Part shown: positions 16,397 to 29,599 of the stretch, in pieces
How the letters are laid out: each line of letters starts with the position of its first letter
Numbering within the stretch: position 1 is the stretch's first letter
From: a virus
Direction: 5' to 3' (one strand)
Length of the DNA: 33,557 bases
Virus record (IMG/VR): IMGVR_UViG_3300042007_000191
Coordinates: 1 to 33,557 of that record
Made by a program: the position numbers and the translations under genes
Notes under the pieces: model-generated
Database searches by the model: none
What the model was told of the DNA's origin: nothing
Seen by the model: only the letters and a program-made list of their open reading frames with translations

Positions 16397-17362
16397 TCAG
16401 GCGGTGGTGAGCGCGTGCTGGCTGAGCGCGGCGGCGACGAGCGCGTGGGCGAGCGGGGGCGGGCACAGGTTCCCGATCTGCTGAGCTACGTCACCGCCGG
16501 CCCACTGCCAATCGGCGGGCATGCCCTGCAGGATTCCGGCCTCGCTGTGGGTAAGCCGCGGGAGTTCGCGGCCGGTCGGGTCGACGAGCCGCAGCCGGCT
16601 GATCTTCCCGGTGACGGTGAATGCGGGCTCGCGGCTGGTGCGTCGGCCGCGGTTCTTCGGGTCGCCGCCCGTCCCGTAGTTGGAGATCACCTCGAACGGC
16701 CAGCCGCCGCGGATGACGTCGCCCATCGCCACCCACGGCAGCAGAGCCGGGTCGCCTTCGTGCTGCGGGACGCCCTTGCGGTACGGGCGGTGGGTCGGGG
16801 CGGGCAGGTGGGCGTCAGCCGCGTACCGGGCGACGAGGACGGCGCGGCGGCGGGTCTGCGGGATGCCGTACTGCTCGGTGCGGAGGATGCCGGTGGCGAC
16901 GCCGTACCCGAGGCGCTCGAGGACCGTGGCGTAGGCAGTCCAGACGGGGAGGACCGCGGGGACCTGCTCGAGGACGACGGCCTCGTAGGGGCGGTCGAGG
17001 CGTTCGGCTTCGAGGATCCAGCGGAGGGGCTCGAGGACGAGGCCGGTGCGGTCGTCGGCGAACGCGGGGACCGGGTGGCCGGTGGCCATGCCGTGAACGG
17101 CGGCGACGAGGGTGGCGAGCTCGACCCTCCCGGATCCGGTGCCGGCCATGGTGAACGTCTGGCAGGGCGGCCCTCCGGCGAGGAGGCGACGGTCGGGGAA
17201 GTCGGCGGGGCCGTGCCGGCGGACGTCGGCGTGGATGGTGGGGAGGCCGTTGGCGCGGCGGGTGGCGACGGCGTTGGCGTCCCACTCGATGCCGATGCCG
17301 GGGGCTCCGGCGGTGCGGGCGCCGAGGGTCATGCCGCCGGGGCCGGCGAACAGGTCGGTCAT
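16397..17362 (-). CDS. Orphan C5-cytosine DNA methyltransferase
   Basis: A 321-residue enzyme with motif I DLFAGPGGMTLGA (residues 3-15), motif IV GGPPCQTF (catalytic C67), motif VI LEQVP (E132; usually ENV, here EQV), motif VIII QYGIPQTRRRA (about 164-174) and motif X QIGNLCPPPLAHAL near the end. The target-recognition region lies around 190-260. There is no restriction endonuclease next to it, so it is likely an orphan enzyme that protects element DNA from host restriction. The start overlaps the upstream stop by ATGA. The class is firm; the target sequence cannot be predicted. Confidence 0.9.
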   Translation of the reverse strand: MTDLFAGPGGMTLGARTAGAPGIGIEWDANAVATRRANGLPTIHADVRRHGPADFPDRRLLAGGPPCQTFTMAGTGSGRVELATLVAAVHGMATGHPVPAFADDRTGLVLEPLRWILEAERLDRPYEAVVLEQVPAVLPVWTAYATVLERLGYGVATGILRTEQYGIPQTRRRAVLVARYAADAHLPAPTHRPYRKGVPQHEGDPALLPWVAMGDVIRGGWPFEVISNYGTGGDPKNRGRRTSREPAFTVTGKISRLRLVDPTGRELPRLTHSEAGILQGMPADWQWAGGDVAQQIGNLCPPPLAHALVAAALSQHALTTA

Positions 17363-18817: not shown

Positions 18818-19563
18818 TGCGCGTCCTCGACGATCTCGGCGTCGTGGATCTCGTCGGCGTGCTCGGCGAGGTAGCGGGCCGAGATGGCGCGCCGTCGGGC
18901 TTCCTCCGCGGCCGCAGCTTCCGGGTCTGGCAGGGGCTGGCCGCCGGCAAGGAGGCGGCGCTCGGGGTGGGGGGAGCGCTCCTTGCCGAGCGGGTGCCGG
19001 TCGCCGAGGGCGGGGCGTCGACAGGGGCGACCTATGGCGGCCTCGCACTTGGGGCAGACCACACCGAGCGGGCCAGCCCGCCGGACCGTGCTGACCGCCT
19101 CCGCCTGGGGGTCGCTGTCGTCGGGGTTGGGGACGGCGCGGTTGCCCTGCCAGCCGCGGGCCTCAAGCTCCTGCATGAACTCTTTGGACGGGCCGCCCGT
19201 GAGGGCGAGCCGTCCGGCGGGGGCCGGTACGTGGCCGGAGGCGATGGCCTGAACCTGGCCGCGGTAGCGGGCGAGGTACTCGGCGGTGCTCTCACCGGCG
19301 ACCGGCTCGTACTGGAAGTTCTCCAGCCGCGCGGACCGGATCTTGGATCGAAGGGTGCGGACGTGGTGGGGCAGGATCCACAGCTTCGCGTCGGGGTCCT
19401 TCGGCGGGGTCGTGTAGTAGGCGTCGATGGCGGCTTTGGCGTCGGCGTCCAGCGGTACGTCGCGGAGGGCCGAGGACCAGGCGATCGCGGCGGCAGTGCT
19501 GGGCTTGCGGTTGTCGAAGGCGGCGCAGTAGCCGAGGAGCTTGGCGGCTTCCTTCTCGTTCAT
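18814..19563 (-). CDS. Probable helicase loader (G39P-like N-terminus) with zinc ribbon
   Basis: A 249-residue protein. The N-terminal 75 residues (EKEAAKLLGYCAAFD..., LDADAKAAIDAYYTTPPKD, HVRTLRSKIR) have the helical pattern of phage G39P-type helicase loaders. A CPKCEAAIGRPC...H..R zinc motif follows at about 172-205, and the C-terminus is a charged helix. It is co-translated (ATGA) directly after the initiator gene, like lambda O-P or SPP1 gene pairs. Homology is remote and judged by pattern; position strongly supports a replication role. Confidence 0.6.
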   Translation of the reverse strand: MNEKEAAKLLGYCAAFDNRKPSTAAAIAWSSALRDVPLDADAKAAIDAYYTTPPKDPDAKLWILPHHVRTLRSKIRSARLENFQYEPVAGESTAEYLARYRGQVQAIASGHVPAPAGRLALTGGPSKEFMQELEARGWQGNRAVPNPDDSDPQAEAVSTVRRAGPLGVVCPKCEAAIGRPCRRPALGDRHPLGKERSPHPERRLLAGGQPLPDPEAAAAEEARRRAISARYLAEHADEIHDAEIVEDAQ

Positions 19564-20498
19564 GCGGAGTCCTCGGAGTCGAAGGAGTCGGCGATGGCGG
19601 CCCAGCCGGCGACGGTGGCGTCGGTGCCGGTGAGGGTCTGGCCGGAGGGGAGTTGGACGACGTTGCCGCCGGGCCGCTGCTGCTGGCGTTGGCTGGCGCG
19701 CTTGGCGTCGTCGCGGATCCACTTCTGCCAGGCGTCGGGCCATGAGCGGCGATTGACGCCTGTGGAGCGGTAGTGGCTGACGAACTGGGCGGTCGAGTGC
19801 TCGACGTCGAGGCCGGGGTAGACGCCTTCGGCCCAGCGGCGCATGGAGTCGGTGACCGCGAATCCGGCGTCGTCGATCGGGGCGCTTGGCGCGAGCCCCT
19901 GGGGTCCGTAGGTAGAAGCACCCACCTCAGCCATAGAGGTTGTTGGTGGTTCTACTGGTGGTTGATTGGTGGTTACGGCGGCACTGAGTGCGTGACGGCC
20001 GGATTTAAAGTGCGTGACGTCACGCACTTCAAGTGCGTGACGGCCGGACTCAGAGTGCGTGACATCCGGATTCGTCACGGATTCCGCGTCCGTGACGGTC
20101 ACGTCGTTTGAGTGCGTGACACGCTTGGCGCGGGACCGACGCTTCCGCTCCGCAGCCGCCTCCCTCGAAGCCGCCTCCTCCCTCTCCAGTTCCACCCAGT
20201 CAGAGGCGTCCCGGAGCAGGTGCATCGACAGCTTGTACTTGATCCGGTCTTGGACCATGCCGTCGCGGACGATCAGCTTGGCGTCCTCCAGCCGGCGCAG
20301 CGCTCGCTGAACGGTGCGCCGGTCGTAGCCGGTGCGGTACTGGAGGCGGGTGACCGAGGGGTGCGCGTTGGTGCCGGTCTTAGATGCGTGTTCTGCGAGG
20401 GCCTGGAGCACGTGCCGCGACGTGCTGTCCGGCTTACCGGACGGCGTGCGCAGCATGGGCGCGTCGTCCATAGCCCAGTTCACGGCCTCGTTGCTCAC
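19560..20498 (-). CDS. Replication initiator-like winged-helix protein carrying the origin in its gene
   Basis: A 312-residue protein. Residues 25-105 form a winged helix (SRHVLQALAEHASKTG, RLQYRTGYDRRTVQRALRRLEDAKLI). Residues 126-171 are repetitive (DVTH..SGRHAL) because they are encoded by iteron-like DNA repeats. The C-terminal part includes ADAWQKWIRDDAK and a Gln/Arg-rich segment. An N-terminal DNA-binding domain followed by in-gene iterons is the organisation of lambda O. The start is a GTG with a weak AGAGAAG site. A transcription factor is the alternative, but the iterons and the loader next door favour replication. Confidence 0.72.
   Translation of the reverse strand: MSNEAVNWAMDDAPMLRTPSGKPDSTSRHVLQALAEHASKTGTNAHPSVTRLQYRTGYDRRTVQRALRRLEDAKLIVRDGMVQDRIKYKLSMHLLRDASDWVELEREEAASREAAAERKRRSRAKRVTHSNDVTVTDAESVTNPDVTHSESGRHALEVRDVTHFKSGRHALSAAVTTNQPPVEPPTTSMAEVGASTYGPQGLAPSAPIDDAGFAVTDSMRRWAEGVYPGLDVEHSTAQFVSHYRSTGVNRRSWPDAWQKWIRDDAKRASQRQQQRPGGNVVQLPSGQTLTGTDATVAGWAAIADSFDSEDSA
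19944..20120. repeat. Putative replication origin: decamer iterons plus AT-richer flank
   Basis: Five direct copies of AGTGCGTGAC (19987, 20009, 20032, 20054, 20111) and one inverted copy (20019-20028). The first four direct copies are 22-23 bp apart, two helical turns, so they face one side of the helix. Copies two and the inverted one form the perfect 20-bp palindrome AGTGCGTGACGTCACGCACT. Next to them, 19944-19974 holds TGGTGGTT three times (19944, 19956, 19967) in DNA with clearly lower G+C than its surroundings, a possible unwinding element. Confidence 0.68.
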
Positions 20499-22046: not shown

Positions 22047-22994
22047 CTACTGGGCGCCGAGCGTCAGCAGACGGGTGTTGATGTAGTCGGCGAGGGTGAC
22101 CGCCGAGCCGTCGGCCGGGTCGAGGAGCGGCGTGGCCTGCAGGCCGCGAGACTCGACCTCTACGAGCAGGGTTGACAGCGCGTCCTGGCCGGCCTCGGCC
22201 GCGGTGGCGCGGTCGACGTAGGTGGCCGGATCGACGGGCGCCGCGCCGTCGTTGAGCCAGGTGTTCAGCGTCTTCGCGATCTGCATGCCGTCGGGCCTGG
22301 TCACGTTCAGGCCGTGCAATTCGGGGCAGCGGGACTTGATGACGGTGAGCCGGTTGTCGGTGTCCATTTGAGCGACGACATCGAACTCGTACTCCACGCC
22401 GCGTCGCTGCTCGGGTCGGGTGCCGAGGCGTACCGGCTCCTTCTTCCCATTGGCGTTGGTCTGCAGGGACCACTCGGTGTGTGACCGCATCGTGGCCACG
22501 ACGTGCCCGGGGTACGAGAGCAGGGCGTCGACCATGGAGTTTTGAAGCGGGGTGCCCTCGGACCAGCCGGCGAAGGAGTTGCCGCCGTAGCCCTTCTTGG
22601 CGGCGCGGTCGACCTGCTCGAGGGTTCCGTCGGTGCCGGACCAGAAGTGCGACCAGGAGTCGACCATGACGGCCCCGTATCCGGCGTCCGCGGCCGCGGC
22701 GAGGGCGCCGATCAGGTTGCGGGGGTCGAAGCTCTGCAGCTGCAGGGTGTCGAAGTGGATGCCACGGAGGCCGGCGTACTTGGAGGCGGCGCCGCGCTCG
22801 GTGTCGATGACTGCAAATCGGTCGGCGAGTCCGGCGGTGAGGCGGAGGCCGGTCCAGGTCTTGCCGCTGCCCGAAACTCCCATGAGGGCGAAGCGAGCTT
22901 TGGCCTTCTCGCGTGTGGCCGGGGTGAAGGTGAAGCTGCCGGCAGCCTGGCTACCGGGGGCGGGGCGGTCGTTGTTGCCCTGGAGGCGGGACAT
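22047..22994 (-). CDS. Sak4-type RecA-like ATPase (AAA_24)
   Basis: A 315-residue P-loop ATPase: Walker A GVSGSGKT (39-46), a strand leading to DTERGAASKYA, Walker B AVMVDSWSHFW (D112), and a RecA-like C-terminal half ending VLTLADYINTRL-like. This is the phage Sak4/AAA_24 family, single-strand annealing or RecA-like recombination proteins often paired with an exonuclease, as here. ATAGGAG precedes the ATG at 22994; the exonuclease ends 8 bp upstream. Probably works on replicating or concatemeric element DNA. Confidence 0.83.
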   Translation of the reverse strand: MSRLQGNNDRPAPGSQAAGSFTFTPATREKAKARFALMGVSGSGKTWTGLRLTAGLADRFAVIDTERGAASKYAGLRGIHFDTLQLQSFDPRNLIGALAAAADAGYGAVMVDSWSHFWSGTDGTLEQVDRAAKKGYGGNSFAGWSEGTPLQNSMVDALLSYPGHVVATMRSHTEWSLQTNANGKKEPVRLGTRPEQRRGVEYEFDVVAQMDTDNRLTVIKSRCPELHGLNVTRPDGMQIAKTLNTWLNDGAAPVDPATYVDRATAAEAGQDALSTLLVEVESRGLQATPLLDPADGSAVTLADYINTRLLTLGAQ

Positions 22995-23002
22995 GGTGGC
23001 TC

Positions 23003-23860
23003 CTATCGGGCGGGCTGGAGGGCAATGGTGGTGCCGTCCTCGCGGGCGGTTCGGTAGGCGATCCGTCGGCCGAGGTGGACGGCGTTGCGGCCGTTGCCGA
23101 GGGCGTCGAGGAGGAGCGACTTGGCTGCCGTGTACTCGGCGTCCGCGGCGACCTTGGAGTCGCGGCACACCTCGTAGCGGGCGGCGATCGGGCCGGGGAC
23201 CTCGACGTCGATCTCGTCGTACCGGTCGGGCTGGAGGCGGATCGTGTCGTAGGTGTGCTGGGTGTTGCCGACCTCGGGCCGCCGGCAGGTGCGGACGTCG
23301 TCGAGGAACTCCTCCGCGGCGGCCCGCATGGTGGCGGCGTCGGCCGGGTCGTACTCGACGGTGTATTCGCGGTAGTCGTGGCCGGCGATCAGGACCGCGA
23401 CGTGGCAGACCTCGAAGCCGAGGGTGTCGAGCTGCCACTGGGTCTGGCAGTAGTAGTGCAGGGGAACGCCCTGGTCCCACTCGTGGGCGACGGGGCTGGT
23501 CTTGATCTCGACGATCTCGTTGTGGCCGAGGAGGTCGGGGGTGGCACGCTGCCAGGGACGATCCTGGTGCTGCCAGGTGCCCGTCTTCGTGAGGGTTAGT
23601 TCCGGGTGCTCGTCCTGGAACTTGGCGCCGACGGCGGGCTCCAGGCGCGTCCCCCATTCGATCTGCGGGGTGGCCGTGAAGGGCGGGACTCGCAGGCCGC
23701 TCTTCTTGTGCCAGAGAGTGAACTGGTCCGACCAGGGCGAGACGCCCATGACGGCGGCGATCTCGGTGGCGGTGATGCACAGGCCGGCGCGGGCGGCGTC
23801 CCACTCTGGGGTGCCGGGGGTGAACTCGCCGAGGAGGACACCAGTCGGGGTCTCCATCAC
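23003..23860 (-). CDS. YqaJ-type recombination exonuclease
   Basis: A 285-residue PD-(D/E)xK nuclease of the YqaJ/lambda-exonuclease family: GLCITATEIAAVMGVSPW (27-44), E74 in WGTRLEPAVG, D109 in RATPDLL, E118-x-K120 in VEIKTS and the conserved YYCQTQWQLD (137-146). It should resect double-stranded ends to give single strands for the Sak4-type partner downstream. The start is a GTG overlapping the upstream stop; an ATG one codon later is equally possible. Confidence 0.88.
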   Translation of the reverse strand: MMETPTGVLLGEFTPGTPEWDAARAGLCITATEIAAVMGVSPWSDQFTLWHKKSGLRVPPFTATPQIEWGTRLEPAVGAKFQDEHPELTLTKTGTWQHQDRPWQRATPDLLGHNEIVEIKTSPVAHEWDQGVPLHYYCQTQWQLDTLGFEVCHVAVLIAGHDYREYTVEYDPADAATMRAAAEEFLDDVRTCRRPEVGNTQHTYDTIRLQPDRYDEIDVEVPGPIAARYEVCRDSKVAADAEYTAAKSLLLDALGNGRNAVHLGRRIAYRTAREDGTTIALQPAR

Positions 23861-24099
23861 AGGACGTTCCCGGCGATGCGCTGGAGCTGGTCCATGCCGG
23901 TCTCGTCGTACTTGGCGAGGCGGACGGCGGCGGCTTCGCCCGGGTAGATGGTGGCGAGCTTGGCCGTGTTGCTCTCGTCGGCGTAGGCGAGGAGCTCGAG
24001 GAGCTTCTGCGTGTAGGTGCCGGGCCGGTAGCCGCCGTCGCGGCCGAACGTCCAGATGACGTGGGCGGCGGTCTCGGCGGTGATGGTGGGCTGGGACAT
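23857..24099 (-). CDS. Small protein upstream of the exonuclease
   Basis: An 80-residue mixed protein (TAETAAHVIWTFGRDGGYRPG..., LLELLAYADESNTAKLATIYPG). CCGGAGACC precedes the ATG at 24099; the stop overlaps the exonuclease start. Found by position with recombination genes; not recognised. Confidence 0.65.
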   Translation of the reverse strand: MSQPTITAETAAHVIWTFGRDGGYRPGTYTQKLLELLAYADESNTAKLATIYPGEAAAVRLAKYDETGMDQLQRIAGNVL

Positions 24100-24131
24100 G
24101 ACGGTCTCCGGTTCAAGGGTGTGGCGGGCCG

Positions 24132-27808: not shown

Positions 27809-27843
27809 TGCCACCCCACCGCCAACAGTCCCAGGGGGTGGCA
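27809..27843 (+). promoter_or_regulatory. Hairpin over the ribosome binding site and start of the ImmA-like gene
   Basis: TGCCACCCC (27809-27817) pairs perfectly with GGGGTGGCA (27835-27843), which contains the ribosome binding site and the A of the ATG. In mRNA this would hide the start of the protease gene. Upstream, GTGTACAACTAGT (27782-27794) resembles a promoter region. Confidence 0.55.
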
Positions 27844-28301
27844 TGTCATACGAGCCTCTGCAAGCCTGCGCCGAGCTAGGAATCTCAGTCGAGCGCATGT
27901 GGCTGCGGGACACCTGGGGTGCGTGGGTGCCCCAGTACCGAGCGATAGTGCTGGCCGAGGGGCTGACCTCCATTCAGGAGCGCTGCGTGCTCGCCCACGA
28001 GCTTGAGCACGCCATCGCCCAAGACGAGATCGGGTGCGGCAGCGGCCCCTACGCCGACCGGCTGGCCGCCGAGGGTGGCCAGAACCTGATCGCCATCAAG
28101 CAGGAGCGCCGCGCAGACAGAGAGGCGTGCCGCAAGCTGATAGCGATCAGCGACCTCGGTGAGGTTGCCCGCTGGGCCGGCGGCATGGGCGCCGCAGCAG
28201 AGGAGTTGGGAGTCACCGAGCGCATGCTGAGCATCCGACTTCAGGACCTCGAGGGCGAGGGGTGGCCGTGGCCGCTGGAAACATCGAAGATCGCTGGCTG
28301 A
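27843..28301 (+). CDS. ImmA/IrrE-type metalloprotease
   Basis: A 152-residue protein with the zinc-protease motif HELEH (H52, E53, H56) in CVLAHELEHAIA and a downstream E88 in the QERRADREA helix as the likely third ligand. The C-terminus has a helix-turn-helix-like AAEELGVTERMLSIRL. ImmA-type proteases cut XRE repressors to induce mobile elements; the repressor gene lies immediately upstream and the integrase starts inside its 3' end. The family call is firm; the substrate is inferred. Confidence 0.85.
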   Translation: MSYEPLQACAELGISVERMWLRDTWGAWVPQYRAIVLAEGLTSIQERCVLAHELEHAIAQDEIGCGSGPYADRLAAEGGQNLIAIKQERRADREACRKLIAISDLGEVARWAGGMGAAAEELGVTERMLSIRLQDLEGEGWPWPLETSKIAG

Positions 28302-29599
28302 GCAAGAGGAAGAACCCGGAAACGGGCAAGAGGGAGCGAACCGCCCGCTACGGAAAGGGCGCGCGGTACCGGGTCAAGCAAATCCCGGGAGTACGAGACC
28401 GCTCCTTCCACTCGCTCGAGGACGCCAAGGCGTGGCTCAAGAGGGCCACGACCGACGTAGAGCGCGGCGAGTTCTACGACCCCAGGAACGGCGACATCAC
28501 CCTGCAGGACTATGTCGACAACACCTGGTGGCCCGGCTTGCGCATGCCTCCCACCACCAAGGCCAGCATGAAGTACAGGATCTTCGGCCACATCATCCCG
28601 CTTGTGGGGCACATGCGGCTGAACCGGATCGGCCCGGACGAGATCAGGCTCTGGCTCACGCAGGTGGAGCAGCGGGTAGACGTCAGCACCGCCCGCGTGA
28701 CCTGGCGGCACTTCTCCTCGATCATGCAGGCGGCGTACAAGGCGAAGAAGATCCCCGCGAACCCGTTCAGGGACGACGACCTCAAGGCGCCTAGCCCTCC
28801 CAAGTCGAAGGCGAAGGCCTGGCCGGTCGAGACCGCCGCAGCCGTTCGGGCGCAGCTGGACGCGCGCTATCGGGTACTGGTGGACCTGGCTCTGGGTGCG
28901 GGTCTGCGGCAAGGGGAGTGCTTCGGATTCTCTCCCGACGACCTCGACGGCGAAGTGGTCCAGGTGACGCGGCAGATCGTCAAGGTGGGATCGCAGTTGG
29001 CCTTTGCTCCGCCGAAGGGCAATAAGGAAAGGGAGGCCCCTTGCCCGCCTGCCCTTGCGGAATTGATCAAAGAGCACATGCGCGAATTCGGCACGGTCGA
29101 GGTGACCTTGCCGTGGGTTGACCCCGACCGGCCGAACCTTGCATGGGAAAGCCGGCCGACACGGACAGTACGTCTCCTAGTGACAACGCCACGGACCGCC
29201 GGGAAATCCGGCGGAGCCATCAACCGAAGCACCTTCGATGACAAGCAATGGAAGCCCGCCTTGGCGAGGGCGGGGGTGATCGCGCCCCCCAAGCGGGAGA
29301 CCGTCGAGCTCCCTGGAGGAGCGACTCGCGCACGTATCTCATGGGCCATGCCCAGGGAGGACGGCTTTCACGTGCTGCGACACACCTTCGCAAGCGTCAT
29401 CCTGGCTGGCGGCGAGACGATCACCAAGCTGGCCGAGTGGCTCGGCCACAGCGACCCGGCCTTCACTCTGCGGACCTACGTACACTTCATGCCGCGGGCC
29501 GGCGAGCGCGGCATCGAGGCCCTCTCGGCGATGTTCCGGAGCGTGCAGGAGTCCCCTGCGGAGCGAAACTCCCCAGAGACTCCCCAGCCCTCCGAGTGA
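28262..29599 (+). CDS. int: Tyrosine integrase
   Basis: A 445-residue tyrosine recombinase. The N-terminal AP2-like/SAM-like arm and core-binding domains (1-180) precede the catalytic domain with R216 (GAGLRQGE), K252 (PPKGNK), H370-x-x-R373 (HVLRHTFAS), H396 (LGHSD) and Y406 (LRTYVH). It starts at a GTG 40 bp inside the ImmA-like gene. Its last codons contain one pair of arm-type repeats and the rnpB-derived core lies 40 bp further, so it almost certainly acts on that site. All catalytic residues are present. Confidence 0.95.
   Translation: MAVAAGNIEDRWLSKRKNPETGKRERTARYGKGARYRVKQIPGVRDRSFHSLEDAKAWLKRATTDVERGEFYDPRNGDITLQDYVDNTWWPGLRMPPTTKASMKYRIFGHIIPLVGHMRLNRIGPDEIRLWLTQVEQRVDVSTARVTWRHFSSIMQAAYKAKKIPANPFRDDDLKAPSPPKSKAKAWPVETAAAVRAQLDARYRVLVDLALGAGLRQGECFGFSPDDLDGEVVQVTRQIVKVGSQLAFAPPKGNKEREAPCPPALAELIKEHMREFGTVEVTLPWVDPDRPNLAWESRPTRTVRLLVTTPRTAGKSGGAINRSTFDDKQWKPALARAGVIAPPKRETVELPGGATRARISWAMPREDGFHVLRHTFASVILAGGETITKLAEWLGHSDPAFTLRTYVHFMPRAGERGIEALSAMFRSVQESPAERNSPETPQPSE

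Follow-up and report, generated by a model that had tools for sequence, protein, structure and literature searches.

A probable lambda O-type replication origin with an 11-bp-phased AACC array inside the initiator gene of a temperate actinobacteriophage

The placement of a replication origin inside the gene of its own initiator is known from bacteriophage lambda. In lambda, binding of O dimers to the iterons is accompanied by bending of the DNA, and under negative supercoiling the 40 bp of A+T-rich sequence next to them melts (PMC5043065). The A/T-rich region is needed for unwinding and not for binding, and O proteins also bind single-stranded A/T-rich DNA (PMC7466680). A related order of functions is found in the 38-39-40 genes of Bacillus phage SPP1, which encode the origin binder G38P, the loader G39P and the helicase G40P. 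Plasmid iterons, for their part, lie outside the rep coding sequence and bind monomeric Rep initiators. Here we describe a locus in a virus record of 33,557 bases, analysed at its full length and hereafter called the window; the locus very probably serves a temperate actinobacteriophage as replication origin and follows the lambda O/ori plan, with binding by the initiator, opening of an array and recruitment of a loader as its likely steps. The newest content of the analysis is an AACC array common to otherwise different phage origins.

The initiator gene, its iterons and the AACC array

The 312-aa product of the initiator gene, which has a GTG start (Table 1), matched HTH_36 in Pfam (E 4e-9) and, in PHROG, best phrog_1032 (replication initiation; E 3e-20), bearing out the winged-helix protein that a first-pass annotation, made from the sequence alone, had seen around the repeats. 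That annotation had also held the proteins to be unrelated in sequence to those of lambda, which was too strong, because the initiator matches O-like families that lambda O matches as well, namely phrog_678 (E 3e-9) and phrog_391 (E 3e-8), both distantly, and likewise phrog_345. What stands of the statement is that the window protein is not a member of lambda O's own family: in the PHROG search lambda O matched phrog_277 with an E of 1e-152 in addition to phrog_678, 391 and 345, whereas the window initiator gave no match to phrog_277. In the AlphaFold2 model, low confidence was confined to residues 131-209 and the tail, and this disordered linker is the stretch coded by the origin. The closest solved folds found for the N-domain with Foldseek were winged-helix regulators.

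Table 1. Features of the origin region (positions in the window)
Feature	Position	Strand	Remarks
Initiator gene	19560..20498	-	winged-helix N-domain ~1-126, disordered linker 131-209, C-domain ~217-274
Iteron unit 1 (GTCACGCAC..ACGTGAC, imperfect dyad)	20098..20120	-	decamer 20111-20120 (+)
Variant unit, coding strand GTCACGGACGCGGAATCCGTGAC, imperfect, 23 bp	20074..20096	-	without exact decamer
Iteron unit 2	20042..20063	-	decamer 20054-20063 (+)
Iteron unit 3, full dyad GTCACGCACTTGAAGTGCGTGAC	20019..20041	-	decamers 20032 (+) and 20019 (-)
Iteron unit 4	19997..20018	-	decamer 20009-20018 (+); with unit 3 forms perfect palindrome 20008-20029
Iteron unit 5 (last)	19975..19996	-	decamer 19987-19996 (+); start 22 bp before AACC array
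AACCACC array, putative DNA unwinding element	19940..19974	-	units begin 19974, 19963, 19951
Downstream gene, 249 aa	18814..19563	-	ATGA overlap with initiator gene; G39P-like N-domain and zinc finger

The decamer AGTGCGTGAC occurs in six exact copies in the 33,557-base record, all of them within the initiator gene, and its reversed pattern, used as a control, has 0 copies in the whole record. Successive distances of 22, 23 and 22 bp separate four direct copies, so that both the number and the phasing given in the first-pass annotation were correct. One inverted copy creates a perfect palindrome, AAGTGCGTGACGTCACGCACTT, as had been reported, the length being 22 bp, with the reported 20 bp as its core. 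A second inverted repeat (12+1+12) is located at 20018-20042. On the coding strand the complete iteron unit reads GTCACGCAC-N5-GTGCGTGAC, the other copies being imperfect dyads, and some homologues have an exact iteron in place of the variant unit (offset 402).

The repeats code for a disordered, fast-evolving linker, and could thus be a by-product of a repetitive peptide with no function at the DNA level. However, a spacing of 22 or 23 bp is not a multiple of 3 and places the copies in two frames, where they are translated as VTHS and GRHAL, which makes them a feature of the DNA and not a peptide repeat; some copies are, moreover, inverted. In 1000 synonymous-codon shuffles the best 10-mer had a mean count of 2.0 and a maximum of 3, none reaching the 6 observed, and the best 10-mers of 12 other ORFs in the window had counts of 2-4. 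The AACC arrays of other phages likewise occupy three frames: 37, 36 and 27 of the sites with a repeated 8-mer among the matches listed in the scan described below are in frames 2, 0 and 1, respectively (overlapping matches counted). On the strength of the shuffles and the frame variation we rejected the peptide explanation, to which we attach a negligible probability. The lambda O gene, taken as a positive control, gave no more than 3 exact 9-mers, a count that its shuffles also reached, and exact-word counts therefore under-detect degenerate iterons.

Immediately 3′ of the iterons lies an easily melted region, as judged by computed stability and G+C content. It is the block described in the first-pass annotation as a lower-G+C TGGTGGTT repeat (complement AACCACCA), and its G+C content is indeed 49%, against 67% for the initiator gene. 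Read on the coding strand it is AACCACCAATC-AACCACCAGTAG-AACCACCAAC, that is, AACCRYC at 11 and 12 bp. A pair of AACCRYC motifs at 11 bp has a single occurrence in the window, at the array, against 0.00 expected by chance. By computed duplex stability only one other distinct 45-bp region of the window is weaker than the array, which ranks 7th among the 33,512 overlapping windows. The locus thus has the proposed lambda O/ori/P architecture, with an N-terminal winged helix, iterons in the linker, a 3′ low-stability block and a C-domain, and this plan is kept in homologues.

Elsewhere in the window, a tyrosine integrase gene (28262-29599, +; phrog_1, 2e-39) adjoins a gene for an IrrE-like metalloprotease (27843-28301, +; phrog_87), which marks the element as a temperate phage or prophage. 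A C-5 cytosine DNA methyltransferase (16397-17362, -; PF00145, 5e-26) is encoded near the replication region. The 689-aa protein encoded at 22047-24116 (-) (phrog_1366, weakly Sak4-like) carries an AAA_24 (RecA-like) domain in its C-terminal half, and its first 390 residues gave no match in Pfam or PHROG.

Homologous loci and the gene slot after the initiator

Protein searches returned 43 viral and 27 genome loci, and a profile query added further viral loci. The approximately 60 homologues belong mostly to Streptomyces phages and prophages, nearly all named loci being from Streptomyces. Most of them have a common grid of repeat offsets (378, 402, 435, 457, 471-, 480, 502), and in most the repeats exceed synonymous shuffles; no such excess was seen in some distant homologues found through the C-domain (e.g. 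L067, L068, L071, L072, L075). The iteron sequence itself varies by lineage: it is GTCACGCAC in most homologues, GTCACGGAC in the clade around L028, GTAACG(G/C)A in L009, L053 and L088, GTCACAGGC in L015, GTCACGTCG in L057, and GGGGTGACGCCC in L026, L039 and L069. The copies within one phage tend to change jointly. When 2.9 million viral contigs were searched with a degenerate iteron-grid pattern, blind to protein, 9 contigs were found, all carrying this initiator family.

The distance to the array is almost fixed: in 49 of 53 homologous genes the first AACC comes 22 bp after the last iteron begins, with the array in frame 2 (29 genes) or frame 0 (20 genes); in the four exceptions the distance is 33 bp (two), 34 bp and 89 bp. 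In 52 of 61 homologues, moreover, no other 40 bp of the gene is as unstable as the AACC block.

Within the recognition helix, residue 61 mostly tracks base 7 of the iteron, with R accompanying C, T accompanying G and V accompanying A. The covariation is strong by mutual information and corresponds on the tree to only two or three independent changes; L098, L089, L093 and L094 are exceptions. Given the few independent changes and the exceptions, we regard it as a lead and not as proof of contact, and its link to recognition is only suggestive. Two homologues depart from the common form. The initiator of Streptomyces eurocidicus (L070:9928-11946) is split over two frames, which may reflect decay or misassembly. 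In the divergent L073, initiator offsets 480-650 hold GGACGTGGACGTCC units followed by AAAGGTCCTTTG repeats in place of the AACC array, possibly another type of opening module.

The protein encoded directly downstream of the window initiator belongs to phrog_8924 (unknown function) and has a zinc finger (PF24623). Its profile had SPP1 G39P (1no1) as top PDB sequence match, with a weak E of 0.045, and its fold matches in BFVD include proteins named as G39P N-domain or replisome organizer proteins, again weak (E 0.13-2.2). The PDB fold search gave no usable match, and fold identity with G39P is therefore not claimed; nor was any loader family matched, including any Pfam G39P-type family. The gene that the first-pass annotation had called helicase-loader-like is a putative replication gene overlapping the initiator gene by ATGA, without a loader-family match of its own. 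Among the loci compared, the initiator is followed by a gene of the window type in 39, by one for a DnaC-like AAA+ loader in 13 and by one for a DnaB helicase in 6, among others. Because DnaC-like loaders or DnaB replace it in sister loci, and because of the weak G39P similarity, the downstream protein is likely to be a helicase-loading accessory protein.

Loci that match only in the N-terminal part and loci that match only in the C-terminal part meet at the origin, around which N-domains and C-domains have been shuffled. The FGAFWxxYP type of C-domain occurs only with DnaC-like neighbours (9/9 loci), and another type is paired with one small unknown gene in 5/5 loci; the C-domain type of the window is found with several downstream gene types. 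Judged by these associations across loci, the arrangement resembles the lambda logic, in which the N-domain would serve the iterons and the C-domain the loader. Other genes also occur beside homologous initiators. In Streptomyces phage TurkishDelight (L077:6439-6849) a gene annotated as ADP-ribosyltransferase lies just before the initiator. In Arthrobacter phages (L078:5788-7107; L122:3273-4685; L124:3277-4680) the gene after the initiator is annotated as a DNA methyltransferase and not as a loader, and iterons and the AACC array are present there. Mycobacteriophage Giles was examined because of a fold match, and no link was made.

Repression is a common role of winged-helix proteins that have dyad sites, and the fold matches of the N-domain are regulators, so that, rather than forming an origin, the repeats might act as operators through which the initiator regulates its own gene, or as a centromere-like site for partition. 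This would not be expected from sites in the middle of a gene, away from a promoter, from a protein belonging to replication-initiation families, or from neighbouring DnaC, DnaB or loader-like genes, and it leaves the low-stability array at a fixed 22 bp without explanation. We therefore consider it very unlikely. The origin reading is favoured because the repeats are conserved as DNA, the low-stability array is fixed in position, the protein falls in initiator families and the gene order fits; on these sequence comparisons a lambda-like origin is strongly supported.

The AACCRYC array in other phages

Viral contigs were scanned for three AACCRYC at 11 bp, with the same pattern reversed as control, and the two scans were compared by the make-up of the matches listed and not by total counts. 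A winged-helix profile trained on sequences gathered without the AACCRYC pattern matched the ORF over the motif, always on the same strand, in 76 of 119 contigs among the matches listed, against 0 of 120 for the reversed pattern. PHROG names replication initiators for 77 of the 100 listed ORFs covering the motif. At least three copies of an 8-mer were present in the 200 bp upstream at 73 of 108 motif sites and 6 of 109 control sites among the matches listed, and in 1 of 108 shuffled stretches, although the sample holds near relatives and these counts are not independent events. At the listed motif sites the commonest spacing of the upstream 8-mers is 22 bp, and about 35 different 8-mers are represented. 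The diversity of iterons and of reading frames argues for a DNA function of the array that has been kept across many lineages.

Arrays follow quite different iterons in the Arthrobacter phages Abidatro, TaylorSipht and Juno112, in Pseudomonas phage JBD68 and in Bordetella phage PHB09, whose initiators are annotated as replication initiation protein, HTH protein, DNA replication protein O or hypothetical protein. Shorter or variant arrays are found in Klebsiella phage RothD and in Microcystis and Bifidobacterium phages, and the array is absent from lambda and from Morganella phage IME1369_02. The view that the plan is special to a high-G+C actinobacterial element does not hold, since phages of Proteobacteria have it too. 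The open-access literature searched yielded no description of the AACC array.

We lean towards the view that the 11-bp-phased AACCRYC array, at a fixed helical distance, is common to many non-lambda in-gene iteron origins as a portable, host-independent module for strand opening or initiator loading, next to which cassettes of iterons and DNA-binding domains have been swapped, and that it can serve as an origin tag. A less probable reading, still to be taken seriously, is that the region is an origin in which a conserved factor, of the host or of the phage, binds the array as duplex DNA, the array being something other than, or more than, an unwinding element. It is a specific sequence, and not just A+T richness, that has been kept across phyla and G+C contents, and a phase of 11 bp would let a protein bind along one face of the double helix. 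On the other hand, the array is the duplex-stability minimum of the gene, and it sits where lambda has its A+T-rich opening region (PMC5043065). The array could also be both factor site and unwinding element.

If the portable-module reading is true, the replication origins of many unannotated temperate phages can be recognised in sequence by their AACCRYC array, and rapid change in the recognition repeats goes together with an opening module that is conserved from phylum to phylum. It then becomes testable which factor reads the array and by what route new iteron specificities emerge, and the locus suggests functions for 'unknown' families such as phrog_8924.

Proposed mechanism and comparison with known systems

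In the mechanism that we propose for the window, the 312-aa protein, probably dimeric, would use its winged helix to bind the dyad units GTCACGNAC-N5-GTNCGTGAC, and the bound copies, phased at 22-23 bp, would put strain on the neighbouring DNA, so that the AACCRYC array, where the duplex of the gene is weakest, would open. The C-terminal domain of the initiator would then recruit the product of the overlapping next gene, which would load the host DnaB. We infer that the array functions in strand opening or as a landing site, and its specific, phased sequence suggests that it is also read, the candidate readers being the initiator (on one strand), the loader and a conserved host factor.

Lambda O/ori/P and the window have in common an origin inside the initiator gene, the succession of N-domain, linker and C-domain, a next gene overlapping by ATGA, iterons with imperfect dyads 20-24 bp apart, an opening region 3′ of the iterons (PMC5043065, PMC7466680) and the O-like PHROGs 678, 391 and 345. 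They differ in iteron sequence and C-domain, and the window is without a P homologue; the opening DNA of lambda is A-rich and has no array, whereas the window has AACCRYC. With SPP1 the window has in common an initiator followed by a loader-like gene, whose product weakly resembles the G39P N-domain at the protein level; the window protein differs in its added zinc finger, and no helicase gene is next door. The Arthrobacter, Pseudomonas and Bordetella phages named above have the same succession of in-gene repeats and AACC arrays, and differ in iterons, C-domains and downstream genes, their records being without annotation of an origin. With the iteron plasmid origins of RK2, P1 and F, the window shares phased iterons beside an easily opened region (PMC5043065).
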